Shown one piece after another: positions 17,050 through 45,582 of a stretch of 64,000 nt of DNA. The DNA is from Thalassospira lucentensis MCCC 1A00383 = DSM 14000. Lineage in GTDB: Bacteria; Pseudomonadota; Alphaproteobacteria; Rhodospirillales; Thalassospiraceae. The stretch spans positions 62,001 through 126,000 of the forward strand of contig NZ_ATWN01000008.1 of the NCBI RefSeq assembly GCF_000421265.1, read 5' to 3'. The translations under genes were made by a program, and so were the position numbers. Position 1 is the first letter of the stretch. Every line of letters begins with the position of its first letter. The notes under the pieces were generated by a model, which ran no database searches, had not been told where the DNA came from, and worked only from the letters and a program-made list of their open reading frames with translations.

Positions 17050-17496
17050 CTACCAGGCATTCAAAACCGTATAACGGTTTTCATCTGACTGTGAATGCCG
17101 AAAACCTGACACACCTATAGATGAATCAAATTCGCCGACGAATTCACGCAAGGGTTCTGTGTCTCGACAAATAAGAGCCAACTTTATGGTTATCACAGGG
17201 GGAAGGTCAGCCTGAACAATACTGATATTGTCATACATTCGAATATGGGCAATATCACCTACGATTGCATCAAGACGCCCCGCCGAGAGCAAATCCACAG
17301 ATTGCTCAAGACTGCTCAGATCATGCCAAATAATCTCAGACGTCAAAGGCACTTTTGGTCTTGGCAAATTAGCAAGGATGCCAATTTCGACATTTGGCAA
17401 TAACGTCAGATCAACACCAGCAAGAGTAAACAGCCGTAATTCAAAACGAACCCTGCTAGCTGCGGCGATGGTGTTATCAAACTCTGTTATATGACA
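17050..17496 (-). pseudogene. Periplasmic solute-binding-like protein, C-terminal half (gene split by the 27.8 kb element)
   Basis: The frame is open from an in-frame TAA at 17497-17499 (inside the element) down to the stop at 17050 and starts with a Cys codon, with no plausible start of its own. It reads CHITEFDNTIAAASRVRFEL and onward, and aligns along its length with the C-terminal half of the intact protein at 45940-46671: VRFEL/VRFEM, LANLPRPKVPL/LATLPRMKLPL, LSAGRLDAIVGD/IGAGRIDVLIAH, ALICRDTE/ALVCHDTL. The missing N-terminal half is at 45325-45582. The fragment is probably not translated. Confidence 0.88.
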
Positions 17497-17563
17497 TTAA
17501 AGGCACCGTTCACATCTACAATCTTTGTTGCCAACAAACCTGTTTAACTGCCAAAGTGCCAGA

Positions 17564-17607
17564 AGCCTTGCCTGCAGCGCCAGCATGCTGGCGCTGCAGG
17601 CAAGGCT
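17564..17607. repeat. Perfect 44-bp palindrome
   Basis: Two 22-bp arms, AGCCTTGCCTGCAGCGCCAG plus CA and its exact complement, meet without a spacer. It is 67 bp from the left end of the element and 61 bp upstream of the first recombinase ATG. It could be a recombinase binding site, an operator or a cruciform/hairpin. There is no T tract, so it is not a terminator. Confidence 0.9.
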
Positions 17608-17668
17608 GCCGTTACAGCCCCGGAATGACAGACACCAGCCAATCTTCCAACATCGAAAAGAGGGAAGG

Positions 17669-18964
17669 ATGCTGTCAGCCCCCTACTACACAGTTGCCAA
17701 AGCAACGGATATCGTACGCCCTGCAACGATTACCTGCGATACCGAGTGGGAGAAGGTAAAACGTTACAGTCTCCCTGCGGGTTTCCACTATCTTGTTCGC
17801 GACGGAGGCAGGGTTGTTGAGCCCGTGTTGTTCTATCTCCATGACAAATGCGTCCGATCCGCGAGGATTCCGTCGGTAGGAAACACACAAACAGCTTTAA
17901 CCTATGACCTGTATGAGTGGTTCTCATATCTGGGCCTGCTTCAACAGCACTGGGATACTGTTTGTTTCGATGACATCGAATTGTATCGCGACAAGCTTTT
18001 ATGCAGCACATCGCCCAAAACCGGCAAAAAATACGCGACAACAACAATACGCCGTCGGCTCAGCACCATAGTGGATTTTTATGAATGGGCAACCAGACAG
18101 GGTTTGATTGAATTTGATACGAAAGAGTTCTACGAAGAACGCATCAAACCCCGAAATTATGCAATTACCTCGATGGCGCATATCCGAACCGGCGACAATA
18201 GAGTCAAAACGAGTAAACTGCTTCCGAGAACCTATAACAGCGAGACAGCAGAGGCATTTTCTCCGGACGCTCTACAACGGGTACTCGCCGAACTTGGTTC
18301 AATCCCTGGAAACAAAGCGGATTGTCGTCCATGCAGAGACCGGCTCATCGCCAGCCTTGCTGTCGCAACCGGCATGCGACTTGACGAATGTGCCAGCCTC
18401 ACTCTGTCACAATACAAAAATCTCAAGAAAGATAGCAGCTATAGCAATGTCGCATTGCCTCTGTATAAAACCAAAGGCCTGAAGCCGCGCACTGTTATCA
18501 TACTAAGCATAATCTATGACGACCTGAGACATTACGTAAAAACCGAACGGGCCCGAGCAGTGCGATGCGCGAAAACGCCTGTCGAGACTCTTTTTGTCAA
18601 TCACGTCCATGCAAAAAGAAACCCGGGTGAAGCCCTGACAGCACATTCCATCTGGCGCCACTTTCAGCGCGCGGTCCTGAAAGCCGGTCTTGTGCGCTTC
18701 CCCCATCAAAACGGCACAAGAGGCCCGGCAGCACGCCCCGAAGCCCTGCACAGCTTTCATCACCTGCGTCATACCTTTGCGGTTACCATGTATTTTGAAC
18801 TGGTTCGCGCGGGCAAAGCAGAACCCTGGCTTAGCCTTCGGACATTACTTGGACATAGTCACATAACGACAACAATCAATACATATCTGCGGAGTGTACA
18901 AATTCGGGAAGCACTCATGACAGATACTCTGAATACTTATCTCAAGGCGCTCCGCGATGGTTAG
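17669..18964 (+). CDS. Tyrosine recombinase A (TnpA-like)
   Basis: A 431-residue site-specific recombinase, the first of three overlapping genes. An N-terminal SAM-like core-binding domain (about 85-190) is followed by a catalytic domain with Arg in ATGMRLDECASLTL (near 237), HHLRHTF (HxxR, near 364), LLGHSHITTTINTYL with His near 395 and the nucleophile Tyr near 404. All active residues are present. ATG 17669 is chosen for its GAGGGAAGG ribosome site; the frame is open to 17525, but that stretch crosses the palindrome. The stop overlaps the next start by 8 bp. Confidence 0.9.
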   Translation: MLSAPYYTVAKATDIVRPATITCDTEWEKVKRYSLPAGFHYLVRDGGRVVEPVLFYLHDKCVRSARIPSVGNTQTALTYDLYEWFSYLGLLQQHWDTVCFDDIELYRDKLLCSTSPKTGKKYATTTIRRRLSTIVDFYEWATRQGLIEFDTKEFYEERIKPRNYAITSMAHIRTGDNRVKTSKLLPRTYNSETAEAFSPDALQRVLAELGSIPGNKADCRPCRDRLIASLAVATGMRLDECASLTLSQYKNLKKDSSYSNVALPLYKTKGLKPRTVIILSIIYDDLRHYVKTERARAVRCAKTPVETLFVNHVHAKRNPGEALTAHSIWRHFQRAVLKAGLVRFPHQNGTRGPAARPEALHSFHHLRHTFAVTMYFELVRAGKAEPWLSLRTLLGHSHITTTINTYLRSVQIREALMTDTLNTYLKALRDG

Positions 18965-20810
18965 AAAGCGCATGGACAGGTCTTTTCTCTCGCATCGTCC
19001 TGCGGTACCAAATTTCGCAGACGACAAATTGGCAGGGTCGGACAAGGAAGAGAAACAATATGGAATTATTAAAAGGCTGTCTCCTGACGGGAAACTCTCA
19101 CAACTCACGCTGAACTGTCCCCGTTCCGGAAAGTCCAACCGTGGCAGCGCAGAAATCAAGGTCAGTGACGACTGGCTCAGAGCCGAACATCTGTCCATTC
19201 CGTTCGCCACTGCAATTTTTTCTCATATTCGCAAATTTGGTCCCTCTACCCAAGCCAACAAGGTTCATGCTCTCAATCGCTTCTTTACTTTCCTTTGCGA
19301 GTACAGAAAAACACATTTTGAACTCTCGGATCTGACCACAACTCTTTTCAACGCGTATATTTTCTGGCTCGATACCCAACAGCTCACAAGCAAAACAAAA
19401 GCCGGGTTAATCTCCCCACTTCGTATTGTGCTGCGCTATCTTAAACAAAATCCACAATATGCAAGCAAAGTGCCCGGGGATGCTTATATCAAGCCAAATC
19501 CGTGGCCTGGTGTGAACGAGCAAGTTTCTCATCGACCCATTTTGGCTATCACCGATCTTGTGAACATTGAACGCGCCTGCATCAAAGAGATGCAGACATG
19601 GATGAGCAAATGCGAAGAAGGAAACGACCTTATCGAGGCTGGCAGAGAACGACTTCTGGCTGGCGCGTCGCCTACCGAATACAAGCTTGAGACATTACTG
19701 GCAGTGATTGAAGATCAGTATGATGGCTATGTGATGAACAGCAAACAATTCTTTGCTGACTGCGATGGCCGAAGAAAACAGATCGAGTTTTTTGGAGGAA
19801 TTAAGGGTATCGCCCCGTGGCTCTATGCAACGAAGCGCTCTCTAGTCCCGTTTGTCTTGATGATGGCGATCAGAACCGCCTTCAACCCGGAAACCGTACT
19901 GGCACTCTGCAAATCGGATATTCGAAAAAGTCCTTTGCTGAAAGGAAGTTCCGAATTATCGCCAAGATATCGGGTGGTCGGCGGGAAGAAACGCGCGCGG
20001 GGAGACCAGATTCGAACCTATCCTCAAGACAGCACAGAGATTGATAGTCCGGTTACCATTTTCCACAATGTCGAAAAGCTGACCGGCCGACTACCAAATG
20101 CCGAGCACGATCCCAACCATGACATGCTCTTCATATTTCAGGGCAGAAACTACGGCATGATTTGTAATTTTTTAAATGCAACTTGCACCTTCCCAAACGC
20201 TCTGTCTGCTTTCCGAGCAGACAACAAACTCCCTGATTTCAGCATGTCGAGCATTCGCCCAACCATATCGGAGATCGTCAATCAACTCAGCAACGGAGAT
20301 ATCAAGGCTCAGCAGGCCATCCTCAATCATTGGCGTACAGAAACAACGGAAACGCATTATGTGTCGGAAGCCGCCCGACATCGTAGACAGGAAACTCTGG
20401 GCAATCTTTTGAACCGACGGGAACGATATATCCGGACATCCGGACAGTCCGATGATCGCATCAATCTTCCAAACAATACTGGTCGCGCCGCAACGCCGGG
20501 GTTTGAATGCACGGACCCGTATGATTCTCCTCTCGCGTCCCAGGTTACAGGAGAGCTCTGTACCGCATGGGGAGAGTGTCCGCTATGTCCCCGCGCCGCC
20601 GTGATCCCCGGATGCTCACACGCATTGGTACAACTGCTTCATCTTCAAAATGCTATTGAAAAAGCGCGTCACGATTTACCGCCAGGTCGCTGGCTCTATT
20701 GGTCAACGGTACAAAAAGCTTTGAACAATTGGGTAAGCAAATTCCAGGATCAGAGCATTTGGCATAAAGCCCGCAATGTTCAAAACACCCACTCCATTCT
20801 GATTGAATGA
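18957..20810 (+). CDS. Tyrosine recombinase B (TnpB-like), 617 aa
   Basis: A large recombinase similar in size to Tn554 TnpB (about 630 aa). The core-binding domain is around residues 75-160 (HALNRFFTFLCEYRKTHFEL). The catalytic part is divergent: Arg in MAIRTAFNPETVLAL (near 305), SSIRPTISEI in place of the usual HxxR, and ILNHWRTETTETHYVSEAAR with the probable Tyr nucleophile. A Cys-rich C-terminal region (LCTAWGECPLCPRAAVIPGC) may bind zinc. It overlaps recombinase A (ATGGTTAG) and ends inside the start region of recombinase C. Confidence 0.85.
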   Translation: MVRKRMDRSFLSHRPAVPNFADDKLAGSDKEEKQYGIIKRLSPDGKLSQLTLNCPRSGKSNRGSAEIKVSDDWLRAEHLSIPFATAIFSHIRKFGPSTQANKVHALNRFFTFLCEYRKTHFELSDLTTTLFNAYIFWLDTQQLTSKTKAGLISPLRIVLRYLKQNPQYASKVPGDAYIKPNPWPGVNEQVSHRPILAITDLVNIERACIKEMQTWMSKCEEGNDLIEAGRERLLAGASPTEYKLETLLAVIEDQYDGYVMNSKQFFADCDGRRKQIEFFGGIKGIAPWLYATKRSLVPFVLMMAIRTAFNPETVLALCKSDIRKSPLLKGSSELSPRYRVVGGKKRARGDQIRTYPQDSTEIDSPVTIFHNVEKLTGRLPNAEHDPNHDMLFIFQGRNYGMICNFLNATCTFPNALSAFRADNKLPDFSMSSIRPTISEIVNQLSNGDIKAQQAILNHWRTETTETHYVSEAARHRRQETLGNLLNRRERYIRTSGQSDDRINLPNNTGRAATPGFECTDPYDSPLASQVTGELCTAWGECPLCPRAAVIPGCSHALVQLLHLQNAIEKARHDLPPGRWLYWSTVQKALNNWVSKFQDQSIWHKARNVQNTHSILIE

Positions 20811-20811
20811 A

Positions 20812-22713
20812 ATGAATCCGATACAAGCCGGTACCGCATATCATCTCATGACGGTGGAAGATCTTCGAAAAGCGCGGATCAACTGCCATTCCTGCTGGTA
20901 TGATGACAGATGGTTCTTCGACAATCTGACGCCAGGTCACGACGCTGCGGCCAGCACCATACGCTGGGATTTCGTCATGCCCGATGGCAGCAGGTTTGTT
21001 GAGCCAAAATGGACGATATTGCTTGACGCCCATCGAAGGCTGGTCTGGTCACTGATTGTCGACCCGCGGCAGCGGCATAGATACAAGCCCAGCTCAATGA
21101 GCAAACTCTCCCGGCGGGTTCTGTATCTTGCCCGCTGGATGGGCAAAACCGGCTATGCGCATTTTGGCGAGCTTGATACCGACGCATTCGACCAATATCT
21201 TGATGACCTGCTGATAGACACGCGCGACAAAGCAAATCTCAGCGCCGTATATCTTATGGAACATCTGACATTACCTGTTTCCCTTGGATATCAGGCCCCG
21301 GTTCTGGCAAAGGCAGGAATTCCTGTACCGGGCAGTGTCCCCTGGCACGGTATGACAGCGTTTGAATTAGCAAAACAGTTGGCAAGCCACGAACAGAACC
21401 CCATCCCGCCAATACCTGACCCAATATTTTTAAAAGTGATGACACGCGCCTTGTGCATACTTGATGAAGCAGAGGATATCATATTACAGGCTCGGCATTT
21501 CGCGGACAACGAAGTCCTGCAGGTTACTGAAAAACATGCGTCGGACCGGAAGCATTTACGCGATAACATGGATGCCCTCAGCGACGCATGCCTGATTCTC
21601 ATTCAGGGATTGACCGGCATCAGAGTGAGCGAGTTATTGGGACTGCAGGCCTCTGCTACGCCACTTGCTCAAAATGCCTTGCCTGATTGCATAAAACTTG
21701 AGCCCTCGGCAAGCGGTCTTCATGAGATATTTTACCTGTCAGGTCATCTCTACAAGACGACGAAGACACCTCGCCCGGTCACCTGGGTAGCCGGTCTGCG
21801 TCCGGTCGGAAGCAATTGCCTTCCTGTTCCGATCAAGGCAATAGCTGTCATCGAAAGACTGTACGCCCCTTGGCGTGCCCGAATAAACGTTGCGGAACTA
21901 ATTATCGGTTTTAGCCGAACAAAAAGCCTGAACAAAGGTGTGAAAGCTCATACTTTGAGCTGGGTCAATCGTTGCCAGAGAAGATTTTTTGCCAGGAGTG
22001 GTATAAAGGATTGGACCGTTTCGTCTCATCAGTGGCGTAAGTCGTTCGCGCAATATGTCATTCGGAGCGACAGCCGGATGCTCCCGGTCCTCCAGGAGCA
22101 TTTCAAGCATATCAGTATGGCGATGACAGAGCAGGGTTACATAAACGCAGACCCTGAACTGAAACAAATCCTGGACGATGCTGCTGTTCAGTCAACCGTC
22201 TCTCTCATTGGCGAAATGGTTTCCGGCAGAAAAATTGTCTCGGGTCCCCTCACCGGTAAACTGGAAAAAAGTGTGTCTCAACTCGAAAAATCTCTGGGCA
22301 ACCGGACCGGTGAGGACCGTCAGCGCGATATTGAAGAACTGGTACGTTCGTCAGGTATGCGGGCACATCATATTCGTTGGGGAAAAACCTCTCTCGGGAT
22401 CTGTCTGTTTCGACAAGGAACCGGAAATTGTACGGTAGGCTGTTCCGCTCGATGGGTGATGAGCGCACCGCTATGGTCCGCCGCGCGCCCTGACTTATGT
22501 TGGGAATGCCAAAATCTTGTCCTCGACGAGACTCATTTACCCTTCTGGAAAGATCGGCTGAACAAATTGCAAAACGATCTGCAAACGGCAACGACCAATG
22601 ATGACTTTGCCCTCACGCAACTCTGCGAACAACGCTTGGAACAATGCATTATGGTGCTAAACAAACTTGAAAATACTGAAACGACAGCTACAGAAAACAG
22701 CAATCCTGGGTAA
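20812..22713 (+). CDS. Tyrosine recombinase C, 633 aa
   Basis: The third recombinase, with a canonical active site: LTGIRVSELLGLQ (Arg near 271), SSHQWRKSFAQYV (HxxR near 406), EHFKHISMAMTEQGYIN (Tyr near 442). The C-terminal 110 residues carry a cysteine cluster (CLFRQGTGNCTVGC ... LCWEC), a likely zinc-binding module shared in kind with recombinase B. ATG 20812 lies 1 bp after the stop of B; a TTG at 20803 would overlap it. The pair B and C could be ancient duplicates. Confidence 0.88.
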   Translation: MNPIQAGTAYHLMTVEDLRKARINCHSCWYDDRWFFDNLTPGHDAAASTIRWDFVMPDGSRFVEPKWTILLDAHRRLVWSLIVDPRQRHRYKPSSMSKLSRRVLYLARWMGKTGYAHFGELDTDAFDQYLDDLLIDTRDKANLSAVYLMEHLTLPVSLGYQAPVLAKAGIPVPGSVPWHGMTAFELAKQLASHEQNPIPPIPDPIFLKVMTRALCILDEAEDIILQARHFADNEVLQVTEKHASDRKHLRDNMDALSDACLILIQGLTGIRVSELLGLQASATPLAQNALPDCIKLEPSASGLHEIFYLSGHLYKTTKTPRPVTWVAGLRPVGSNCLPVPIKAIAVIERLYAPWRARINVAELIIGFSRTKSLNKGVKAHTLSWVNRCQRRFFARSGIKDWTVSSHQWRKSFAQYVIRSDSRMLPVLQEHFKHISMAMTEQGYINADPELKQILDDAAVQSTVSLIGEMVSGRKIVSGPLTGKLEKSVSQLEKSLGNRTGEDRQRDIEELVRSSGMRAHHIRWGKTSLGICLFRQGTGNCTVGCSARWVMSAPLWSAARPDLCWECQNLVLDETHLPFWKDRLNKLQNDLQTATTNDDFALTQLCEQRLEQCIMVLNKLENTETTATENSNPG

Positions 22714-22720: not shown

Positions 22721-23104
22721 ATGTCCTCTACATCTGTTGAAACAGCATTCATGATGGCGATTGATCGGCTACTCGCCCGCAATGTTCTCAAAGCGAATTC
22801 CAGCGATGTATCCAAAATCAGTAAAAGTGCGGTTGCGCGCGAAGCCGGGCACAGTAGGACAACGCTGTACAAATATCCAAACGTGCTTGCACGATTGAAA
22901 TCACTTGAAGCCACAACGAAACCGTCAAAGCAGAGTAAAATAGTGAGGCTGCGCCAGGAAAATGCCCGACTGGAGCAAGAAAGCAGAATGGCCAGAGACC
23001 TGATGGCAACAATGCTGCTTCAAATGCGCGAGATGGAACGACAAACAGCTTCAAGAATTCGTCAGGCAGTACGTATGACACAAGCAGAAGGTTCTGATAA
23101 GTAA
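22721..23104 (+). CDS. Small TnpC-like coiled-coil protein (DUF6262-type)
   Basis: A 127-residue protein following the recombinases by 7 bp. The N-terminal half looks like a winged or homeodomain-like HTH (ISKSAVAREAGHSRTTLYKY), the C-terminal half is a coiled coil (VRLRQENARLEQESRMARDL). Size and position match TnpC of Tn554, which influences orientation and efficiency of transposition. The frame extends to 22667, but the ATG at 22721 begins the conserved part. The family assignment is from architecture. Confidence 0.75.
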   Translation: MSSTSVETAFMMAIDRLLARNVLKANSSDVSKISKSAVAREAGHSRTTLYKYPNVLARLKSLEATTKPSKQSKIVRLRQENARLEQESRMARDLMATMLLQMREMERQTASRIRQAVRMTQAEGSDK

Positions 23105-23968: not shown

Positions 23969-25390
23969 TCACCCGGCACAGCAAGAGAGTTTGGCAACAT
24001 CCTTGCCAAAACCCTGGGCGGCAAGTTTCAGTCCCTCGACGGTCGTCAGATACGGAAAGATCGTGTCACCAAGTTCTTTTGCAGTCATGCCGAAACGTAA
24101 GGCGATGACCATTGTCTGAATGCTGTCACAGCCCTCGGGTGCCAGTATCTGAGCGCCCAGCAAGCGGTCAGTTGCTTCATCTGCAATGAGTTTTATCAAA
24201 CCGCGTGTATCACGGGCGGCAAGTGATCTGGGCACCTGATCAAGCGGTACGACAGATGTCTTGACCACAAAGCCCCGTTTCTGTGCCTGAACCTCGGAGA
24301 GACCTACTCCTGCAACTTGTGGATCGGTGAAGACAATCCAAGGCATCGTTGTGTTGTCATATGTCCGTTCGTCATGGTTATAGGCATTTAGTGCCGCAAG
24401 TTTGGCTCCGTAAGCTGCCATATAAACGAACTGGTCGCGTCCGGTCACATCGCCCGCAGCATATACATCGGGACGCGTTGTCCGCATATAAGCGTCCACA
24501 ACAATTCCGCCATTCGAATTTACTTCAATTCCGGCCGTTTCGAGTCCTAATCCGTTTGTATTCGGCTTACGGCCCGTCGTTACCAGGATATGTTCAGCAG
24601 AAAGAACCTCAGCCTGGCCATCAACGTTAATGGTCAGTTCCGTTTTATCATTCTTCCGCTCAACCCGCTCATAGGTGAGGCCCGTGCGAACGGATACCCC
24701 TTCATTCCTTAACTCCTGAGTGAGCGATGCAGTAATTTCCGGTTCTGCTTCGGGAAGAAGCCGTGACCGTGTCACCAGCGTAACCGAGCTGCCGAGCCGT
24801 GCAAACATCTGAGCCAGTTCACAACCGATATATCCGCCGCCAATCACGAGAAGTGATTGTGGCTGCTGATCAAGTTCAAGTGCCGTTGTGCTGGTCAGAC
24901 AAGGGACATTCTCAATGCCCGGAATATCGGGAAATGACGGGGATGTGCCGGTTGCAATGATTGTCTTTCTTGCAACAAGCTTTTTGCCGTCAAGCAGAAG
25001 ACCGGTGTCATTAAATACAACATCCCCTTCGAGATAATTGATGCCATCATATTCGGGCAGCAGATCGATATATTTCTTCTGACGCAAACCGGAAACCAGA
25101 TCCTCTTTAGCCTTGATCAGGGACTGCCAGTCAGCGGCATGAGCGTTTCCGGAGAGGCCGGGAAAACGCGTAGCGGCCCCTGCACCATGCACGGCCTCTG
25201 CGGCACGGATCATGGTTTTGGAGGGCACACACCCGACATTGACGCATGTGCCGCCAATCATTCCCTTGCCGATAAGTGCGACCCTTGCGCCCTGTTCAGC
25301 GGCCGTAATCGCCGCCGAAAAACCAGCCGAACCCGCGCCGATGACAGCAAGGTCATATTCCTGTTTGTCGGTCGAACAACAATTGTTCAT
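23969..25390 (-). CDS. merA: Mercuric reductase
   Basis: Cytosolic flavoprotein reducing Hg(II) to volatile Hg(0) with NADPH. The 473 residues contain the FAD loop GAGSAGFSAA, the redox-active disulfide GGTCVNVGCVPSK (Cys49/Cys54), an NAD(P) loop VIGGGYIGCELAQ and the C-terminal vicinal pair SCCAG (Cys470/471) that delivers Hg(II), which separates MerA from other disulfide reductases. The N-terminal NmerA metal-binding domain of longer MerA proteins is absent; only a short MNNCC remains. ATG 25390 follows AAAGGAAAA. It is preceded by merF after 1 bp. Confidence 0.96.
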   Translation of the reverse strand: MNNCCSTDKQEYDLAVIGAGSAGFSAAITAAEQGARVALIGKGMIGGTCVNVGCVPSKTMIRAAEAVHGAGAATRFPGLSGNAHAADWQSLIKAKEDLVSGLRQKKYIDLLPEYDGINYLEGDVVFNDTGLLLDGKKLVARKTIIATGTSPSFPDIPGIENVPCLTSTTALELDQQPQSLLVIGGGYIGCELAQMFARLGSSVTLVTRSRLLPEAEPEITASLTQELRNEGVSVRTGLTYERVERKNDKTELTINVDGQAEVLSAEHILVTTGRKPNTNGLGLETAGIEVNSNGGIVVDAYMRTTRPDVYAAGDVTGRDQFVYMAAYGAKLAALNAYNHDERTYDNTTMPWIVFTDPQVAGVGLSEVQAQKRGFVVKTSVVPLDQVPRSLAARDTRGLIKLIADEATDRLLGAQILAPEGCDSIQTMVIALRFGMTAKELGDTIFPYLTTVEGLKLAAQGFGKDVAKLSCCAG

Positions 25391-25391
25391 A

Positions 25392-25976: not shown

Positions 25977-25987
25977 ATCTGTTACTC

Positions 25988-32874: not shown

Positions 32875-32888
32875 CTGTTTCTCCATCA

Positions 32889-35970: not shown

Positions 35971-36048
35971 TCGGTCATCCACCTTCCTGCGCCAGAGGTT
36001 TTTCTCCCTTGGGCCTCTGGCGCACCTGATCTTTTTGGATTTCAAAAA

Positions 36049-37734
36049 ATGAAACAGAAATTTGCCCGCAGTGCCCTTTGGGGTGTGCTGGCCGCTATTG
36101 CTGTGTCTTCGACAGCCAATGCGGCGAATTACGATCTGTCTGTTGATTACGTTACAATTGATACCGGTGAAATGAAAACCACAGGTATCGGATATAATGG
36201 GTCTTCCCCTGGTCCGACCTTGCGTTTGAAGGAAGGCGAAGAGGCTGTCATCAAGGTGACCAACAATCTTGATGAGGCAACGTCCATTCACTGGCACGGA
36301 CTTATTTTGCCCTATCAGATGGACGGGGTGCCGGAAATCAGCTTTCCGGGGATTGCGCCTGGTGAAACATTCACATATCGCATTCCAGTCTCGCAAAGCG
36401 GTACCTACTGGTTCCACAGCCATTCCGGTTTTCAGGAGCCGGACGGGGCGTATGGTTCGATCATTATCGAACCCAAAAAGCGAGAACCGTTCAAGTTCGA
36501 CCGGGAGTATGTGGTTGTCCTGAAAGACAAGCACCCGCATTCCGGCGCACGTATTTTGCGCAACCTCAAAATGATGCCCGATTATTATAATCGCAACCAA
36601 CGCACCCTTGGCGATTTCATCAGTGATGTCTCTGAAAATGGCTTCGGTGCGACGTTGTCGGAACGTGGTGACTGGGGCAGCATGCGCATGATGCCGACCG
36701 ACATCGAAGATGTTCAGGGATTTGTCGGTCTGATCAACGGAAAGTCACCAGAGCAGAACTGGACAGGCCTGTTTAAGGCCAATGAACGTGTGCGCCTGCG
36801 CTTCATCAATGCATCTGCCATGACTTACTTCGACGTCCGTATTCCGGGACTTGAAATGACTGTTGTGCAGGCCGACGGCAACAACGTTCAACCGGTCAAG
36901 GTTGATGAATTCCGCATTTCGGTTGCAGAAACCTACGATGTGATTGTTCAGCCGACCGCAGATAAACCTTACGCAATCATGGCGGAATCGATGGGGCGCT
37001 CGGGTTATGCATTCGGGTCGCTGTCGCCGCAAGAAGGGCTGAAAGCTGAAATGCCAGCCAGACGCATGGACGCTCCGTTGTTGACAATGGCTGATATGGG
37101 GATGGATCACGGGAACATGCCCGGGATGGACCATTCCTCAATGAGCAGTGGTAACGAGAACAGCATGGCTGGAATGGACCATTCGAATATGGCCGGGATG
37201 GATCACTCTCAGATGGCGATGTCCAAAGATGATCCTTTCTATGCCGCTGGCAGTGGTTTGACACCAAAAGCAGCGAATGGCGGCAAGTTCTTATCTTATG
37301 CCGACTTGAAGGCACAGAAGCCCTTGTATCCGGAGCGGCCGGCAACGCGTGAAATTGAACTGCGTCTTACGGGAAACATGGAGCGCTATACTTGGTCAAT
37401 CAATGGCGTCAAATACGAAGATGCAGAACCTATCCGCTTGAAATATGGCGAACGGGTACGGTTCAAGTTCGTCAATGAGACCATGATGTCACACCCGATG
37501 CATTTGCACGGGATGTGGTCAATCCTCGATACCGGTAACGGTAAATGGGATCCGGTAAAGCACACCATCAATATCAATCCAGGCATGACTGTTTATTCGG
37601 AAACCGAAGTTGATGAACCAGGGCAATGGGCGTTCCATTGTCATTTGAGCTATCACATGGCTTCTGGAATGTTCCGCAAAGTGATTGTTGAGGGCGGTCC
37701 AGCCGTCGCAGCACTTGAGAATGGAGTTCAATAA
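36049..37734 (+). CDS. copA: Multicopper oxidase CopA (periplasmic copper resistance)
   Basis: A 561-residue laccase-type oxidase that oxidises Cu(I) to less toxic Cu(II). The four Cu-binding motifs are intact: SIHWHGLILP (near 80), YWFHSHSGFQ (near 120), MSHPMHLHGMW (near 480) and HCHLSYHMASGM (near 529), which together supply type 1 and the trinuclear site. A Met/His-rich loop (GMDHGNMPGMDHSSM and repeats, near 350-390) is the Cu(I)-binding segment of CopA/PcoA proteins. The signal peptide is Sec-like here (ANAANYD) without a clear twin arginine, unusual because many CopA proteins use Tat. copB follows after 2 bp. Confidence 0.95.
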   Translation: MKQKFARSALWGVLAAIAVSSTANAANYDLSVDYVTIDTGEMKTTGIGYNGSSPGPTLRLKEGEEAVIKVTNNLDEATSIHWHGLILPYQMDGVPEISFPGIAPGETFTYRIPVSQSGTYWFHSHSGFQEPDGAYGSIIIEPKKREPFKFDREYVVVLKDKHPHSGARILRNLKMMPDYYNRNQRTLGDFISDVSENGFGATLSERGDWGSMRMMPTDIEDVQGFVGLINGKSPEQNWTGLFKANERVRLRFINASAMTYFDVRIPGLEMTVVQADGNNVQPVKVDEFRISVAETYDVIVQPTADKPYAIMAESMGRSGYAFGSLSPQEGLKAEMPARRMDAPLLTMADMGMDHGNMPGMDHSSMSSGNENSMAGMDHSNMAGMDHSQMAMSKDDPFYAAGSGLTPKAANGGKFLSYADLKAQKPLYPERPATREIELRLTGNMERYTWSINGVKYEDAEPIRLKYGERVRFKFVNETMMSHPMHLHGMWSILDTGNGKWDPVKHTININPGMTVYSETEVDEPGQWAFHCHLSYHMASGMFRKVIVEGGPAVAALENGVQ

Positions 37735-37736
37735 CA

Positions 37737-38459
37737 ATGAAAACCCTAACTTTGGCCGCGATTGGTGGTGGTGTTCTTGCCACGATCCTGTCCTTCTCGT
37801 TCACTGCCAAAGCAGACAATCACATCTTCTATGGCATTCAAATGGAGCAGTTTGAATACCGATCAGGTGATGAAGACGAAAATCTCTTTGTTTGGGATGG
37901 TGACGCATTTGTAGGAACCGATGAGTTGAAGCTGCGCTGGCAAGGCGAAGGCGAGCGTGATCTCAAAAACGACCTTTACGAAAACTTCGAGAACAGGCTG
38001 GTCCTGCAAACACCAATCAGTGACTTCTTTGATGCCAAGGCCGGTATTCGTCTGGATACGCCAAGCACAACAGATCGTTGGTATGGAACGGTTGGTATCA
38101 TGGGGCTTGCTCCTCAATGGTTTGAAGTCGACGCTGACCTGTTTGTCAGCGAAACCGGAGACGGTAGTGCGCGACTTGATGTTGAGTACGAAGGCTTGTT
38201 GACCAATCGTTTAATCCTCACGCCTTCGCTTGAGCTGAATGCAGCATTCTCTGAGGATCGCGAAATTGAGGTCGGGCGCGGGTTTTCAAGCGCAGAAATC
38301 GGACTGCGGCTTAGCTATGATCTAATCGACCGAGCCGTTGCACCGTACATTGGGGTTGCCTATGAACGCAAACTTGGCAAAACCGCAGACTTTGCAAAAG
38401 ACGACGGCGAGGATTACGAAGCAACTTACCTCGTGACCGGTCTCCGCCTTCTTTTCTAA
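37737..38459 (+). CDS. copB: Outer-membrane copper resistance protein CopB
   Basis: A 240-residue beta-barrel protein with a signal peptide (to about AKADN). Typical CopB features are IFYGIQMEQFEYR, WDGDAFVGTDELKLRWQGEG and the C-terminal YLVTGLRLLF, ending in Phe as outer-membrane barrels do. The Met/His-rich N-terminal extension seen in Pseudomonas CopB is missing, so this is the short form. It sits 2 bp after copA and is followed by a strong terminator. Confidence 0.92.
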   Translation: MKTLTLAAIGGGVLATILSFSFTAKADNHIFYGIQMEQFEYRSGDEDENLFVWDGDAFVGTDELKLRWQGEGERDLKNDLYENFENRLVLQTPISDFFDAKAGIRLDTPSTTDRWYGTVGIMGLAPQWFEVDADLFVSETGDGSARLDVEYEGLLTNRLILTPSLELNAAFSEDREIEVGRGFSSAEIGLRLSYDLIDRAVAPYIGVAYERKLGKTADFAKDDGEDYEATYLVTGLRLLF

Positions 38460-38468
38460 GCTTCATAT

Positions 38469-38500
38469 GACAGGGAGGATTTTCCTCCCTGTCTGTTTTT
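38469..38500 (+). terminator. Rho-independent terminator after copB
   Basis: Perfect 11-bp stem GACAGGGAGGA / TCCTCCCTGTC, loop TTT, then TGTTTTTA. It closes the cupredoxin-copA-copB unit. Confidence 0.88.
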
Positions 38501-38529
38501 ATCGAACCTTTTGAAGGAACCTGACACAG

Positions 38530-39729
38530 ATGATGGAAATCGTCCACGATATGGGGCACCGTTTAACGCACTACATATCAAGCGATGCACACTGGTGGGT
38601 TCATTTTGTCTTCCATTTGGTTGTGTTTGGGGTTCCGGTTGCACTTATTATTATTCTCAGTGCAACGGGATACAGGCTTTTAAAACGCCGCAAATCTGTT
38701 CTTGCGTGGCAGGCTCAAAAATCCTTCTCAAAGAACGGAACACCGCTCCTGCAGTACATATTCAGAGCATCATGGAAACGACAGCTAAAACTGGGCCTGC
38801 TGGCAATAACGTCACTACCGGCACTTTACATGAGTCTCGAACTACCGAAGCTAATCATCAACAACGCCATAGAGTCCGGACACTTCCCAATCATGTATAT
38901 GGGTATAGAACTGTCACAGACGCAGACGTTGCTTGCACTATGCATGCTGTTCCTCTTGGCAATTGGCTTACATGGTGGATTGAAATACCAGGTCAATTTG
39001 CAATCCGGTGCGTTGGCAGAACACATGTCACGCCGCCTGCGGCTCGACATCTCAAAATTCAGCTTTCGAAAGCCGTCCCCCAGAGGCGGGGAATTAATTC
39101 CGGTTATTGTTCAGGAGGTAGAGCCCGTAGCTGGGTATGCATCGGAGTCCATTGTATTACCTTTGTTACAAGGTGGCACGTTCCTGACTATTCTGGCTTT
39201 CATGCTCGTGCAAGATTTGGTCTTGGGCATCGCCGCAACAGCACTGTTGCCGCTTCAGATTTTTGTCATTCCCAGATTTCAAAAGAAAATTAATGCTTTG
39301 TCTCGAACGCGGCTGAAAGAAGTCAGGGTTCTCGGGGAGAAGATCGGGAATATCTCAAACGACCACCAGCCAAGTGCTCGGGATATTTACGGGTCGTACA
39401 AACGACTTCACGATCTTCGTCTTTCTATCCACAAAAACAAGTTCGCCATGAAGTCTTTAAACAACTTTATATCTCAGATGACGCCGTTCTTCTTTTACAC
39501 AATAGGGGGGTATCTGGTGATAAAGGGCGACCTCACGCTCGGAGCACTAATCGCAGTATTAACTGCATACAAAGACATGGGCGCTCCGCTCAAAGAGCTC
39601 TTTCGTTACTATCAGGCGCAAGCCGATGCTCATGTCAGATACTCCGAAATCAAACCTTACATCTCCAAGGAAATCGAGATTACGGACAATCAGTTTGCAG
39701 ATGTAACGGTTCTATCTGAAGCAGGGTAA
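38530..39729 (+). CDS. ABC-exporter transmembrane domain protein lacking an ATPase domain
   Basis: A 399-residue protein resembling the transmembrane half of a type IV (MsbA-like) ABC exporter: helices near 25-48, 95-115, 137-157, 215-260 and 315-355, with the coupling-type stretch PRFQKKINALSRTRLKEVRV and the end GALIAVLTAYKDMGAPLKEL. The nucleotide-binding domain (Walker A, LSGGQ) that normally follows is absent, and the 88 bp after the stop cannot encode one. A separate ATPase is not seen in the window. It could be a remnant or an NBD-less membrane protein with another job. Confidence 0.78.
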   Translation: MMEIVHDMGHRLTHYISSDAHWWVHFVFHLVVFGVPVALIIILSATGYRLLKRRKSVLAWQAQKSFSKNGTPLLQYIFRASWKRQLKLGLLAITSLPALYMSLELPKLIINNAIESGHFPIMYMGIELSQTQTLLALCMLFLLAIGLHGGLKYQVNLQSGALAEHMSRRLRLDISKFSFRKPSPRGGELIPVIVQEVEPVAGYASESIVLPLLQGGTFLTILAFMLVQDLVLGIAATALLPLQIFVIPRFQKKINALSRTRLKEVRVLGEKIGNISNDHQPSARDIYGSYKRLHDLRLSIHKNKFAMKSLNNFISQMTPFFFYTIGGYLVIKGDLTLGALIAVLTAYKDMGAPLKELFRYYQAQADAHVRYSEIKPYISKEIEITDNQFADVTVLSEAG

Positions 39730-39817
39730 AAAAAACTTACCCATAGTTGAGGTAGGTCAACGTAACTCGATATTCAGGGGCATATGTGTTACCTTCTGCC
39801 CAGAGGGAATTTGATCA

Positions 39818-40135
39818 ATGAATGCACAGCAAGCACTTATACGCGCCGTACTGATCCTGCTCGTCGGGATAAGCGCTATAATGCTTGCTCCCCATATCGC
39901 AGTCGCGTCGACTGGCTCTTTTCCTGCGCATTCTGCAGAAATCAGTGGTTTTGACGTTGAACACCAGCATGACCTGACTTCGTGCTGCTCTCAGGTTTCT
40001 TGTCACTCCACATCAGCGGTCCTTACCGAGATTATCCTACCGGTTTCCGAGTTTTCACCTGTGCAGAACGGGATAGAAGAAGTGTCCCTTCAGCCGGTAT
40101 CTCGGTCATGGATTTTCCAGCCTCCCATATTCTGA
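39818..40135 (+). CDS. Secreted Cys-rich protein, 105 aa
   Basis: Signal peptide (VLILLVGISAIMLAPHIAVA) and a mature chain with HQHDLTSCCSQVSCHST, a CC...C cluster with His, suitable for soft-metal binding. GAGGGAA precedes the ATG. Same general style as the proteins at 34197 and 34929. Family not recognised. Confidence 0.6.
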   Translation: MNAQQALIRAVLILLVGISAIMLAPHIAVASTGSFPAHSAEISGFDVEHQHDLTSCCSQVSCHSTSAVLTEIILPVSEFSPVQNGIEEVSLQPVSRSWIFQPPIF

Positions 40136-40261
40136 TCCTCCCAAACAAATAGCGAATAACTGTTCTGGTTTCTGCACCTGCCGATGGCATGCGTACAGAT
40201 CGAGCGTAGGTGTTCTGCACCATGCTGTTTTCAGACGGAACAGTCATACCTAAAGGTATTT

Positions 40262-40615
40262 ATGGGATGGCAAAGAGAAATGGAAAATATTCTCAGTTGG
40301 TTGCTTTGGGGAGCCTTCATCATATTGATGATGCGCTTTGGTTGCGGTGCTCACATGTTTGGCCACAAAAAGCATAACCACAATAAGAAACAAGCGGACG
40401 GGCATGCTGAGGCGATCCGATGGGAGCACCCTCATTCCGCCGTTGACCCGGTTTGTCATAAAACTGTCGATCCGCGCATCGCCAAAACAACCATTCATGG
40501 TGGCGAAGTATTCTACTTCTGTTCAGACACCTGTCGTTCGAAATTTGAAGTGTCGCCAGATACCTCTGTCGATAGCAGCGCAATTAACCGACAAACTCAC
40601 GTATCGCCAAGCTAG
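40262..40615 (+). CDS. YHS-domain membrane protein
   Basis: A 117-residue protein: one N-terminal helix (ILSWLLWGAFIILMM), a His/Lys linker (GHKKHNHNKKQADGHAE) and a YHS domain (VDPVCHKTVDP then FYFCSDTCRSKFEVSP). YHS domains bind heavy metals, and the same domain is present in the P-type ATPase at 42562. The start is ATG 40262 (AAAGG upstream); ATG 40280 is an alternative. Confidence 0.78.
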   Translation: MGWQREMENILSWLLWGAFIILMMRFGCGAHMFGHKKHNHNKKQADGHAEAIRWEHPHSAVDPVCHKTVDPRIAKTTIHGGEVFYFCSDTCRSKFEVSPDTSVDSSAINRQTHVSPS

Positions 40616-40724
40616 TTCAGCGAAATCATAGGCCGCACCAACCTGACCAAGGTTAACTAGTCCACTTGGTCTCACGTGTCTTCGAATATTTGATACATAC
40701 GCATAAAACAAAGGCCCGAAGAAA

Positions 40725-41174
40725 ATGAAAAAAGAAATCAATTGGTCAAAATATTTGGTCATCGGTTTTTTCGCAGTAGGGATCATCGCCATGACCCTGA
40801 ATTCGTTTCTGCCCGGGAAAGATGACATCAAAGATCTTGAACTGACCGATAACGGGATTGCGCTCCCCAGTTTTAGCAAGGAAGCCATGGTAGGAAAGCA
40901 GCTTTTCGATATGAACTGTGTTGCTTGTCACGGACGCAATGCAACCGGTACGGAACAAGGCCCGCCGCTGATACACAGGATCTACAATCCGGGACATCAT
41001 TCAGATCGCGCATTCTATCTAGCTGTTCAAAACGGGGCGAAACAACATCACTGGCCCTTCGGCGATATGCCAGCCCAACCTCAGGTAAGTTCGGAACAGG
41101 TATCGCGGATCATTCGTTATGTACGTGAGCTGCAGGAAGCAAACGGCATCATGTACCAACAACATCAAATGTGA
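40725..41174 (+). CDS. Anchored c-type cytochrome
   Basis: A 149-residue cytochrome with an N-terminal membrane anchor (about 9-29) and haem motif MNCVACHGRNATGTEQGPPL, with a likely axial Met in FGDMPAQPQVSS. Different from the cytochrome at 31753. It may take electrons from the multicopper oxidase reaction or feed the respiratory chain; partner unknown. Confidence 0.85.
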   Translation: MKKEINWSKYLVIGFFAVGIIAMTLNSFLPGKDDIKDLELTDNGIALPSFSKEAMVGKQLFDMNCVACHGRNATGTEQGPPLIHRIYNPGHHSDRAFYLAVQNGAKQHHWPFGDMPAQPQVSSEQVSRIIRYVRELQEANGIMYQQHQM

Positions 41175-41181
41175 GGCAGAG

Positions 41182-42519
41182 ATGGATCATCAGTCAGAAT
41201 ACAAGAAAAATAGCATTTCGCTCGTTGGCGCCATATCCATGGGCACCGGTGTTATGATCGGGGCAGGAATTTTTGCTTTAACGGGACAAATTGCCGAACT
41301 TGCAGGAAAGTGGTTCCCGTTGTCGTTCCTGTTTGGCGCACTTGTCACTGCTTTTAGCGCATATACATATATAAAGATGTCAAATGCTTTCCCGTCCGCG
41401 GGTGGGATCGGAATGATCCTTCAAAAAGCGTACGGGTCAGGAGCCATAGCAGGTGGCGCAGCATTGCTGATGGCCTTTTCGATGGTTATCAACGAGAGTT
41501 TGGTGGCAAGAACATTCGGAACCTATGTCTTGCGCGCATTTGACTTGACAGAGTTTGAAGTTCTTATACCGGTATTGGGTGTCTGCCTGATCATTTTTGC
41601 GTACGCTGTCAACAGAGCTGGGAACAAATCGGTTGGTGTGTTTTCAATGGTCATGGCCGCATTGAAGATCGGTGGAATTGCGTCGTTCGCGATTGCAGCT
41701 CTGTGGGCTGGCGGATATTCATTCGAACCCTCATCAACCGACAGCGCGAGCTTTCCATTAGCCGGTTTTGTTGCATCAATTGCTCTTTCAATTCTAGCCT
41801 TCAAAGGGTTCACTACGATCACAAACAGCGGTGCTGAAATCGTGAACCCACACAAGAATGTTGGCCGTGCGATCACGTTCTCAATCCTGATTTGTGTTGT
41901 CGTATATATTCTCGTGGCGCTCGCTGTTGGCTCAAGCCTTGGCTTGGATGAACTCATAAAAGCCAAAGACTATGCCCTTGCCGAAGCCGCAGCACCTGCA
42001 TTGGGGCCCACCGGATTTTATATGACTGTGCTACTCGCAGTCGTTGCGACGGCCTCCGGTTTGCTTGCAAGCGTGTTTGCTGTCTCAAGAATGCTCGCCA
42101 TGCTGACCGACATGGAGATGATCCCACACAGTCATTTTGGAATGTCAGGTTCAATTAAAGACCACACGCTTGTTTACACGGTTGTCGTGGCAGCGCTGTT
42201 GACAATCTTTTTTGATTTAAGCCGGATCGCTTCACTTGGAGTGTTTTTCTATCTCGTCATGGATGTGCTCATCCACTGGGGATGCTTTAAGTATCTACGG
42301 CAGGAAATAGGTGCACGCGGCTTTGTTATGCTTACAGCGATTGTCTTTGACATCATCGTATTGCTCGTTTTCGCCGGCATGAAATTGCAAAGCGACCCAT
42401 CCATTGTTCTCATTGCAACCTTGATGATTGTTTCTGTGTTCATTTTTGAACGTTGGTTCCTGTCAAATTGGATAAACCAGTCGGCCAAGGCGCACAGTCA
42501 CGATCACTCAGGACATTGA
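41182..42519 (+). CDS. APC-family amino acid permease
   Basis: A 445-residue transporter with about 12 membrane helices. The N-terminal MGTGVMIGAGIFALTGQIAE is the unwound first helix of APC carriers, followed by NAFPSAGGIGMIL and AFKGFTTITNSGAEIVNP. ATG 41182 follows GAGGCAG; the open frame from 41119 overlaps the cytochrome gene. The C terminus is His-rich (KAHSHDHSGH). An amino acid carrier between a cytochrome and a Cu-ATPase is unusual; import of a Cu-binding amino acid is possible, but speculative. Confidence 0.85.
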   Translation: MDHQSEYKKNSISLVGAISMGTGVMIGAGIFALTGQIAELAGKWFPLSFLFGALVTAFSAYTYIKMSNAFPSAGGIGMILQKAYGSGAIAGGAALLMAFSMVINESLVARTFGTYVLRAFDLTEFEVLIPVLGVCLIIFAYAVNRAGNKSVGVFSMVMAALKIGGIASFAIAALWAGGYSFEPSSTDSASFPLAGFVASIALSILAFKGFTTITNSGAEIVNPHKNVGRAITFSILICVVVYILVALAVGSSLGLDELIKAKDYALAEAAAPALGPTGFYMTVLLAVVATASGLLASVFAVSRMLAMLTDMEMIPHSHFGMSGSIKDHTLVYTVVVAALLTIFFDLSRIASLGVFFYLVMDVLIHWGCFKYLRQEIGARGFVMLTAIVFDIIVLLVFAGMKLQSDPSIVLIATLMIVSVFIFERWFLSNWINQSAKAHSHDHSGH

Positions 42520-42561
42520 TAAACCGCAGTGACATTGAGGCATAACAGCAGGAAGCAGACC

Positions 42562-44970
42562 ATGTCTGAGCATCATCATAAGAAGCACCAGCATCATCAT
42601 AAGAAGCACCAGCATCATCATAAGAAGCACCAGCATAATCAACGAACGTCCGATCAAGCAGAACATGCAACCGATCCTGTTTGCGGTATGTCGGTCACTG
42701 TGGATTCCGATACGCCACACTCGCGGTACGGCAGTGAGACATATTATTTCTGTTCCCAAAAATGTAAGGGAAATTTCGATAGCGCTCCTGAAAGTGTATT
42801 GTCCGCAGAAGAAGAGACATCTGCTGCAAACAGCGCTTCGTCATCCGCTTCTCGCCGCTACACCTGCCCGATGCATCCAGAGATCATACGATCCGGACCT
42901 GGTTCCTGTCCGATCTGCGGAATGGCACTGGAACCGATGGATATACCAACAGAAAATGACGAACCAAACCCCGAGATTCAGGATTTCAAAAAGAGATTCT
43001 GGTTAGGCGCAGCTCTTACGGTGCCGCTGATTGTCCTAACGATGGGGCCCTTTGTTGGTTTGGGTTTCATCCGGGAAATGATTGGAGAACGCGTTACTCT
43101 TTGGGTTGAGTTAATTCTTGGAACGCCTGTCGTCCTGTGGTCTGGCTTCCCTTTCATGGTTCGTGGATGGAATTCTGTGGTGAACCGTTCTCTCAACATG
43201 TTCACATTGATCGGGATGGGTGTTAGCGCAGCTTATATATTTAGCGTCGTCGCAGTGATTTCTCCTGACATTTTTCCTGATGGATTCAGAGATGCACAGG
43301 GACATGTCGGTGTGTACTTCGAAGCTGCAGCTGTCATCGTTGTACTTGTGCTTCTTGGCCAACTGTTGGAATTGGGGGCTCGGGAACGAACCGGTTCGGC
43401 AATCAAGGCGTTATTGGGTCTTGCTGCAAAAACAGCCCGCATTATTGAAGATGATGGTTCTGAACGGGAAGTTCCTCTTGAAGATGTGACCGTCGGAATG
43501 AGCTTGAGAGTTCGTCCAGGTGACAAGATACCTGTCGATGGCGTTGTCGTTGAAGGACGATCGTCAGTTGATGAATCCATGATCTCGGGTGAACCCGTTC
43601 CAATTGAAAAGAATCCAGATGATGATGTAACCGGAGCAACAATCAACGGGAATGGCAGCCTGATTATCCAAGCCAAACGGGTTGGCAAAGATACTGTCTT
43701 GAGCCAAATCGTTGATATGGTCTCCAATGCTCAGCGAAGCAAAGCGCCAATCCAAAAGGTTGCAGACACGGTTGCAGGCAAGTTTGTGCCTGCTGTTATC
43801 CTAGTTGCTTTAGTTGCCTTCGTCGCTTGGGCCATCTGGGGACCAGATCCGTCATTGTCATACGGGCTTGTCGCAGCAGTCGCTGTTCTGATCATTGCGT
43901 GTCCTTGCGCTCTTGGTTTGGCAACACCAATGTCAATCATGACCGCTACCGGTCGTGGTGCGCAAATTGGTGTGCTCATTAAAAATGCAGAGGCCCTGGA
44001 GCGATTTGCGAAGGTCGATGTGCTCATCGTCGATAAAACCGGGACTTTGACAGAGGGTAAACCGAAACTAGCAGGTGTAATCGCTCAATCAGACTATCAG
44101 GAGGAGGAAGTTCTTTCTGCCGCTGCGGCGCTCGAAAAAGGATCCGAACATCCATTGGCTGACGCCATTGTTAGTGCTGCTCAGGAGCGCGGCTTGTCCC
44201 TTGATAAGGCAGAGGACTTTGAAGCTGTAACCGGTCAGGGCGTCACCGGAAAGGTGGATGGCAAGTCGGTTGCCCTAGGTAATAGTAAACTCCTTCAGAC
44301 TCTCAATATCGATCATTCTGCTGTTGATAAAACAGCAAATGATCGGCGAGATATGGGGGAGACGGTAATGCATGTCGTTATTGATGGAAGAATTGCCGGG
44401 CTCATTTCCGTAGCCGATCCGATCAAGGACACGACATTGGAGGCTTTAAAGGCGCTCAAGAAGCAAGGCTTCAGAATCGTCATGGCAACCGGTGACAACC
44501 AACGAACAGCAAAATCCGTTGGCAATAAACTTTCCATTGACGAGATTCGGGCCGATGTCTCCCCAGAAGACAAAGCCAATTTAATTATGGAACTCAAGGC
44601 TGAAGGCCATCAGGTAGCCATGGCAGGTGACGGCGTCAACGACGCCCCTGCTCTTGCTCAGGCTGATGTCGGAATTGCGATGGGTACGGGCGCTGATGTT
44701 GCAATTGAAAGTGCTGGTTTCACCCTCGTCAAAGGTGACTTGAGCGGGATTGTTAGAGCCCGAGAACTCTCGGAAGCAACGATGCGCAATATCCGGCAAA
44801 ACCTCTTCTTTGCGATGGTCTATAACGCAGCCGGTGTGCCTGTTGCTGCGGGTCTGCTCTATCCGTTCTTTGGCATTCTCATCTCACCAATGTTTGCAGC
44901 TGCAGCCATGAGCTTATCCTCGGTATCAGTCATTGCGAATGCACTGAGGTTACGTCGAGCAAGTTACTAG
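42562..44970 (+). CDS. Cu(I)-exporting P1B-type ATPase with His-rich and YHS N terminus
   Basis: An 802-residue copper pump. The order is a His-rich repeat (HHHKKHQ x3, residues 4-24), a YHS domain (DPVCGMSV ... [12 protein letters not shown], 33-75), a heavy-metal-binding segment ([20 protein letters not shown], near 105), then the ATPase core: CPC in [13 protein letters not shown] (near 446), DKTGTLTEG (phosphorylated Asp, near 490), SEHPLADAI and [20 protein letters not shown] (near 690). CPC rather than CPH, and [15 protein letters not shown] at the end, point to the Cu(I)/Ag(I) class. No GMxCxxC HMA domain is present. The start follows AGGAAG. Confidence 0.93.
42571..42633 (+). repeat. 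Three tandem 21-bp units encoding HHHKKHQ
   Basis: Three perfect copies of a 21-bp unit beginning CATCATCATAAGAAGCACCA, in frame at the N terminus of the copper ATPase. Each gives HHHKKHQ. Copy number may vary by slippage and would change the length of the metal-binding tail without breaking the frame. Confidence 0.95.
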
Positions 44971-44990
44971 CATCCCAATATTGACTGATT

Positions 44991-45055
44991 GGGCGAGGGG
45001 TAAACCAGACAAGGCTGACTTTAATACAGGACAGTTCGCCCCTCGCCCATTTTAA
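44991..45055 (+). terminator. Long-loop inverted repeat after the Cu-ATPase gene
   Basis: GGGCGAGGGG (44991-45000) pairs perfectly with CCCCTCGCCC (45039-45048) across a 38-base loop and is followed by ATTTTAAAT. It is probably the operon terminator, though the loop is long and the T tract short. Confidence 0.5.
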
Positions 45056-45324
45056 ATGACATACCAACCAGCACTCAGAACTTTAAATATCTTCTGATCC
45101 GTTCCCAAAACTCATCTGTCGACTTTTTACACTTGGTAGCCAGAAATCTATTTTCATCGAATTAGTGTTGATGCACTTATCTTCTAACCACCTATATAAT
45201 TTGACTGAACAGTTTTTGTGTGAACAAAAATAATAATATATTTGTATTTACTCTTTTAAATCAAAGCTCTGAATAATAACGAACTATATTAAATGTAATA
45301 TAAATAACGCGGGCTGCGAACTCA
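45056..45324. other. A+T-rich right end of the element, no gene
   Basis: No plausible ORF. From about 45,180 the DNA is very A+T-rich (for example AAAAATAATAATATATTTG), unlike the rest of the window. It ends in GCGGGCTGCGAACTCA directly before the ACA junction at 45325. I see no inverted copy of the left end sequence (TTAAAGGCACCGTTCACATC). Confidence 0.7.
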
Positions 45325-45582
45325 ACACACAGTCAATTTGTTCGTTTTCATAAGCTGATGAAATCGATTGTAGGGGATAACCTCAAACGAAACCGGGCGA
45401 CTTTGAGTGCCAAGTCGGGTCAGGAACTTTCGCTGCTCAAAAGGGGCAAGATCGACCCATTTCGCCGCAATCTCGATGTTACTGGCAATCCGAACAGGTT
45501 CTTGACCATATGCAGAAACCGATATGCAGAACAGGCAAAACAGCCCCCCAAAGAGATAAATCCCGCGCCGCACAAACTGCAT
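45325..45582 (-). pseudogene. Periplasmic solute-binding-like protein, N-terminal half (gene split by the element)
   Basis: It encodes the first 86 residues of the broken gene: a signal peptide (IYLFGGLFCLFCISVSAYG), then VRIASNIEIAAKWVDLAPFE and RFHQLMKTNKLTVC, where the element begins and a TGA (45322-45324) stops the frame. It aligns with the N-terminal part of the intact protein at 45940-46671 (VRVGNVVTVTDPWLLSLTSE and DCIVGEA). An AAGG ribosome site remains. It may still be made as a short exported peptide. The other half is at 17050-17496. Confidence 0.88.

Follow-up and report, generated by a model that had tools for sequence, protein, structure and literature searches.

The question raised by the Thalassospira lucentensis MCCC 1A00383 DNA considered here (a 64,000-nucleotide stretch of contig C8 of the genome that we number G000, hereafter the window) is what separates the two halves of a single host gene, and how it came to be there. 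A first-pass annotation of the same letters had proposed that the gene was split by an inserted element and that it was related to an intact neighbour. Both proposals were borne out by comparison with another genome of the genus (G001), which aligned with the window flanks at 93–96% and which carries one uninterrupted gene of 236 codons at the corresponding place. No Pfam family was found at an E value of 0.1 for the C-terminal part of the interrupted gene. The two halves flank a discrete mobile element of approximately 27.8 kb, which is best explained, at a probability of roughly 70% that includes the mechanism proposed below, as a transposable island that is site-specific, apparently non-conjugative and of the strand-biased circularizing integrative element (SE) type.

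The ends of the element were defined by the empty site in G001. Homology of the right flank to G001 extended beyond 45325 down to approximately 45310, homology of the left flank ended before 17487, and the net insertion of 27,823 bp corresponded to a body of 27,817 bp (17487–45303) plus 6 bp. These limits displaced the base-level ends given in the first-pass annotation (17497 and 45324), as the G001 sequence aligned straight through 45310–45327. Deletion of 17497–45324 left two adjacent Cys codons and a frame of 234 rather than the expected 233 codons, and the reading behind the proposed joint (KLTVC+HITEF), with its Cys codon and stop, was out of frame with the intact gene because of a one-base length difference between the N-terminal half and G001 near 45345–45350. 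The supposed ACA direct repeat was reduced to one shared trinucleotide, the G001 comparison giving instead a 6-bp spacer with unlike letters at the two ends. Alignment with a relative whose copy of the gene is uninterrupted upheld the insertion itself but not the exact joint, which the empty site did not match.

Read inward, the two ends (TTATATGACATTAAA and TTATATTACATTTAA, termed motifs C and C', respectively) form imperfect inverted repeats that are identical at 13 of 15 positions and at 14 of 20 over a longer stretch, a match reached by 10 of 200,000 random interior pairs. The left boundary was identical in copies located by protein homology in Thalassospira profundimaris PR54-5 (G018), T. 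tepidiphila MCCC 1A03514 (G017), T. sp. MCCC 1A03138 (G025) and G013. The same boundary was noted in copies on the T. xiamenensis M-5 plasmid (NZ_CP004389.1, contig C2 of G010) and in a Rhodospirillales metagenome-assembled genome (L049), which lend it weaker support because they were found using a pattern built from the boundary. Since all the spacers read at occupied sites have G as their last letter, the position of this boundary is uncertain by approximately one base.

Four core genes lie at the left end and read inward in the order intA-tfp-intB-srap, their homology being positional. IntA and IntB show the catalytic pattern of tyrosine recombinases (RHRY) and the second protein is non-catalytic by its residues. 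The catalytic call for IntA, which reads HHLRHT...GHSHITTTINTY, rests on residues other than the box-I Arg, and the corresponding IntB residues are R274, H409, R412, H433/H436 and Y446. The model of the Srap-like protein consisted of a small helical domain and a 57-residue helix (predicted local distance difference test score, pLDDT, 85.6; predicted template modelling score, pTM, 0.47; four similar sequences) and none of 316 matches to it in the PDB had an E value of 0.001 or less; the prediction for the Tfp-like protein (mean pLDDT 32.9) was unusable. The NCBIfam family VPA1267 was rejected as a srap marker, the window protein scoring 20 bits against a cut-off of 90; a genome search with this family gave no match in G000 and one match, below the cut-off, among 14 control genomes. 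A Tfp gene was present in 5 of 29 genomes of the genus, including that of the window. The Tfp frames of five copies of the element contained no stop and the IntB residues of these copies were intact, whereas the core genes were missing from the copies in G001 (58 kb read, no genome-wide Tfp match), G010 and G005.

This organization was compared with that of SE-6945 on pSEA2 (Tfp accession WP_176703888.1), of the four genes near blaGMA-1 on pAQU1, taken as SE-Pda04Ya311, and of three further SE-type loci added by similarity (i.e., five SE loci in all). As far as the available parts of PMC10214605 and PMC9345347 describe them, SE-6945 and SE-Pda04Ya311 share with the window element the order of the four core genes, an IntA and an IntB that are catalytic beside a second protein that is not, imperfect inverted repeats at the termini (13–19 bp in SEs), a 6-bp spacer and a split attB. 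In contrast with SEs, the window element has an alphaproteobacterial host, an IntB outside the SE clade and a Tfp whose homology is seen only through intermediates. Profile comparison of the Thalassospira group with the five SEs gave 99.4% for IntB, 96.5% for IntA, 84% for Srap and 0.54% for Tfp, and a chain through Pseudomonas/Cupriavidus-type elements (P1) gave 96.5% (window to P1) and 99.2% (P1 to SE) for Tfp and 96.2% and 98.2% for Srap. In an IntB tree of 21 rows, the five SE rows formed one clade (100/99), the window group formed a separate clade (100/100) with elements from Methylomonas, Sphingobium and G451, and alpha/betaproteobacterial and then Pseudomonas/Cupriavidus elements fell outside the latter. 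By this tree, the window element belongs to a sister clade of SEs. The elements of Methylomonas sp. UP202 (L050) and the Sphingobium yanoikuyae plasmid (L052) were the best core-protein relatives in the plasmid collection, with approximately 29–38% identity in the three large proteins. A group labelled GI (Ppu, G396, G404, G427 and G292), unverified as genomic islands of the GInt (ginABCD) type and with a third protein in which the catalytic His and Tyr are missing, was not included in the tree. G265 (L182) was set aside because it gave no srap hit, and L070, with no gene table, was not used. Loci L179, L180, L184, L185 and L076 form a four-gene recombinase group with a second protein of approximately 780–1410 residues and, again, a third protein that lacks the catalytic His and Tyr.

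Occupied and empty sites in other genomes bear on how the element may move. The insertions in G013 and G017 share one interrupted long open reading frame (ORF), which we take to encode a PQQ-type dehydrogenase, while those in G025, G018, G010 and G001, and probably that on the T. lucentensis plasmid NZ_CP136683.1 (contig C1 of G005), lie in umuC. The hexamers at the left (attL) and right (attR) junctions, respectively, were GCAGCG and ACAATG in G013, GCAGGG and ATAATG in G017, ATAATG and ACAATG in G025, ATAATG at both ends in G018 and ACAATG at both ends in G010; those of the window are given in Table 1. For the umuC copy in G001 and for a copy at an unassigned site in G023, the left end was not found and attR read GCAAGG and ACAATG, respectively. 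The G023 copy (L159, contig C36) has cargo 96–99.7% identical to the right part of the window element and the same right end, and its site is near a contig end. Empty sites read ACGCCG at the window's gene in G001, GCAGAG, GCAGGG and GCAAGG at the dehydrogenase-like site in G004, G022 and G016, respectively, and ACAATG at umuC in G009. Among 23 loci for the dehydrogenase-like site, 19 were examined (the two occupied copies and two short hits were left out), and exactly 6 bp lay between the flanks in 17 of these.

At this site, the attL hexamers of G013 and G017 differed by 0–1 letters from the empty hexamers of G004 and G022 whereas the attR hexamers differed by 3–4; compared with G016, attL of G017 was 1 letter off and attR 3. 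The attR hexamer was AYAAYG in all three non-umuC insertions that have an empty site for comparison, and AYAAYG, the pattern of conserved umuC codons, accounts for 66 of the 63,995 hexamers in the window. Moreover, exact matches were seen between attR of G013 (ACAATG) and the hexamer of empty umuC in G009, between attR of G017 (ATAATG) and attL of the umuC copies in G025 and G018, and between the GCAAGG of the umuC insertion in G001 and empty hexamers of the dehydrogenase-like site (L086, L087 and L090). The target's hexamer lies at attL and a foreign one at attR, clearly in G017 and, apart from the comparison with G016, well in G013, an arrangement that resembles that described in the available parts of the SE papers; the pattern fits the SE fingerprint/footprint rule, and suggests that the element travelled through umuC. 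The non-umuC target resembles TATCAA-N5G-CNGGCTG (TGCCAA in the G001 copy), and umuC fits mainly the right half of this motif. A search for a donor with the motif found it in 25 of 29 genomes and singled out none. In G013 and G017, approximately 3.5 kb of extra DNA, which holds a short target-like duplication, separates the copper ATPase gene from the right end, between window-equivalent positions 45156 and 45145.

In the mechanism that we propose, IntA, the non-catalytic Tfp-like protein, IntB and the Srap-like protein would act on C and C' with a 6-bp crossover spacer. A circular copy carrying the 6 bp that adjoin C would form by strand-biased copy-out, and would integrate into a target that resembles the above motif or into umuC. 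The target's own 6 bp would end up next to C and the imported 6 bp next to C' and, because the carried-in 6 bp stay beside C', each insertion would record the previous address of the element. Tn554 follows a similar rule in the account given in PMC10214605, as the 6 bp to the left of its donor site are carried to the right of the new site; compared by description only, it differs from the window element in having three genes (tnpABC) and no Tfp counterpart.

As to the earlier address, umuC was detected in 6 of 29 genomes at an E value of 1e-20 and was uninterrupted in one, G009. In the T. lucentensis plasmid, the metal genes precede an IS3 transposase gene and the gene for a Y-family polymerase (Pfam IMS); the T. 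xiamenensis plasmid has a remnant of the element whose right end adjoins the polymerase gene. The cargo in umuC of G001 resembles the window from approximately 23270 to 45303 at 90–98% identity. Most simply, the window copy would derive from one that sat in umuC elsewhere, which would set the direction of travel. The element may have arrived on a umuC-bearing plasmid, since its attR hexamer ATAACG fits AYAAYG and since umuC occurs with the element on two Thalassospira plasmids. Also on the T. lucentensis plasmid is an 18-kb gene whose annotated product is a strawberry-notch C-terminal domain protein (L176:1-1124; 18659–37123 of NZ_CP136683.1). Strawberry-notch genes recall phage-like plasmids.

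Several observations weigh against this account. At the dehydrogenase-like site, attL and attR of G013 tie at 2 letters each when compared with G016, and the window contrast is weak, its attL being 2 letters and its attR 3 letters from the empty hexamer of G001. The ATAACG of the window was not seen at any real umuC site read, is one letter from the TTAACG of the empty dehydrogenase-like sites in G000 and G001, and is found in a genome (G000) with no umuC match in the search at 1e-20; similarly, the GCAATG of such sites in some distant relatives is one letter from ACAATG. The umuC insertions of G025, G018 and G010 are uninformative for the hexamer rule. The direct Tfp match to SEs (0.54%) is within the range of four wrong-gene controls (0.13–0.74%). 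Finally, Thalassospira, a genus of Alphaproteobacteria, is outside the published range of SEs, although this range is not part of the mechanism. SEs are published as confined to Gammaproteobacteria, and the available parts of the same paper report neither Tfp nor Srap homologues from Alpha- or Betaproteobacteria, nor any ginC-ginD block from Alphaproteobacteria (PMC10214605), while gin homologues do occur in Alphaproteobacteria according to PMC5385486, also seen in part. Literature searches, with most subscription journals outside their scope, returned PMC10214605 alone both for strand-biased integrative elements with Alphaproteobacteria and for GInt integrases with genomic island and Alphaproteobacteria, nothing for tyrosine recombinase with Thalassospira, and only a paper on an Antarctic Sphingomonas for Thalassospira with plasmid and mercury and copper resistance.

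The strongest competing explanation, which we consider unlikely, is that the element is a GInt, excised by ordinary 6-nt staggered cuts with random repair of the heteroduplex and no strand bias. The four-gene operon, large cargo, site specificity, 6-nt staggered cuts and AT-rich 3' end (0.2–0.4 kb in GInts, 0.33 kb at 44971–45303) all agree with GInts as described in the available parts of PMC5385486, as do the alphaproteobacterial gin homologues reported there, and the window clade is nearer to the Pseudomonas/Cupriavidus elements than to SEs. However, the third protein of the window element keeps the first catalytic Arg (R274) that GinC reportedly lacks in that account, GInts having been compared by description only, and the attL and attR hexamers at the G013/G017 site run in one direction. 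A search with simple motifs beside seven loci showed no neighbouring ssb gene, a GInt landmark. Far less probable is a conventional integrative element or transposon that moves by cut-and-paste and has a short direct repeat, for which the trinucleotide ACA is present at both places and IntA alone resembles ordinary phage integrases, as the ACA version is refuted by positions that lie off the ends given by the empty site in G001 and as there are four core genes, including two large recombinase-fold proteins. Equally improbable is a dead island distributed by homologous recombination rather than by recombinase-driven movement, since the coreless copies in G001, G010 and G005 that favour it are set against insertions at unrelated genes with the same exact termini and 6-bp spacer and against the intact Tfp frames and IntB residues of five copies.

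Between the left end and intA, the window element contains a perfect palindrome that is 48 bp long in G017, G025 and G013. Of the 22 pairs shared between the window and G017, four were changed on both sides and none was broken; one pair was broken in G018. In a scan of ten regions before intA, palindromes were also noted in the sister copy of G025 and in elements of Novosphingobium (L073, 17-nt arms) and Methylocella (L074, 22-nt arms), while none was seen in seven regions, including those of SE-6945 and the pAQU1 element. The three alphaproteobacterial elements with palindromes (at L073:1963-1998, at L074:1863-1906 and in the window) have them 20–62 bp before intA. The window palindrome is not followed by a run of T. 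Perfect palindromes can also be maintained by template switching. The compensated 44–48-bp palindrome may have a role in this clade as folded DNA or in regulation.

Table 1. Features of the interrupted gene, the inserted element and its surroundings (window positions).
Feature	Position	Strand	Remark
Host gene, C-terminal part	17050..17480	-	Aligned to intact gene of G001
attL 6-bp spacer ACTCTG	17481..17486	+	Phase uncertain by about 1 bp
Left terminal repeat, motif C TTATATGACATTAAA	17487..17501	+	Same boundary in sister copies
44-bp perfect palindrome between left end and intA	17564..17607	.	
intA-like tyrosine recombinase	17669..18964	+	Pfam PF00589, PF02899; box II residues
tfp-like protein	18957..20810	+	Lacks box-I Arg and box-II His
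intB-like large tyrosine recombinase	20803..22713	+	R-H-R-H-Y
srap-like protein	22721..23104	+	Helical domain plus long helix
merA mercury(II) reductase	23969..25513	-	TIGR02053 over cut-off
MerP-like heavy-metal-associated protein	25647..26114	-	PF00403
merT transporter	25988..26377	-	PF02411
merR-family regulator	26453..26884	+	TIGR02051 below its cut-off
Copper/redox block: CcdA-like, PCu(A)C, SCO1, thioredoxin-like, cytochrome c, DUF411	27240..34526	-	
Copper block: cupredoxin, copA multicopper oxidase, copB, YHS, cytochrome c, permease, P-type ATPase	35398..44970	+	
Short AT-rich 3' end	44971..45303	.	34% GC versus 51% for body
Right terminal repeat, motif C' TTATATTACATTTAA read inward	45289..45303	-	Common to sister copies
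attR 6-bp spacer ATAACG	45304..45309	+	Proposed footprint of earlier site
Host gene, N-terminal part	45310..45582	-	One-base length difference from intact relative
Intact neighbour gene related to interrupted gene, outside element	45940..46671	-	

The predicted cargo is a mercury module and a large copper cluster. No Pfam hit to relaxase, transfer, conjugation or mobilization families was obtained among 30 scanned proteins, smaller ORFs being outside the scan. Megablast of the cargo against a plasmid collection of 72,556 records matched 5 records, of which only the T. lucentensis plasmid holds most of the cargo. Outside the element, left-flank stretches 13814–14119 and 15110–15259 matched G001 (L013) more than once, which suggests small duplications or rearrangements there.

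Taken beyond the single insertion, the SE-type reading would mean that copy-out/copy-in transposition extends past Gammaproteobacteria in a separate clade (of which the palindrome is possibly a part), that the 6-bp footprint is a natural travel log, and that elements of Thalassospira move back and forth between umuC on plasmids and other loci, spreading resistance to mercury and copper with no transfer genes of their own. The odds on this broader proposal appear evenly balanced, our estimate having been lowered because of the TTAACG and G016 comparisons. If true, a poorly understood mode of transposition would have a wider host range than is known, and would become testable in non-pathogenic marine strains. 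The history of movement of resistance islands would be readable from six bases at one end, and metal resistance in Thalassospira would be tied to plasmid-borne umuC as a landing pad.

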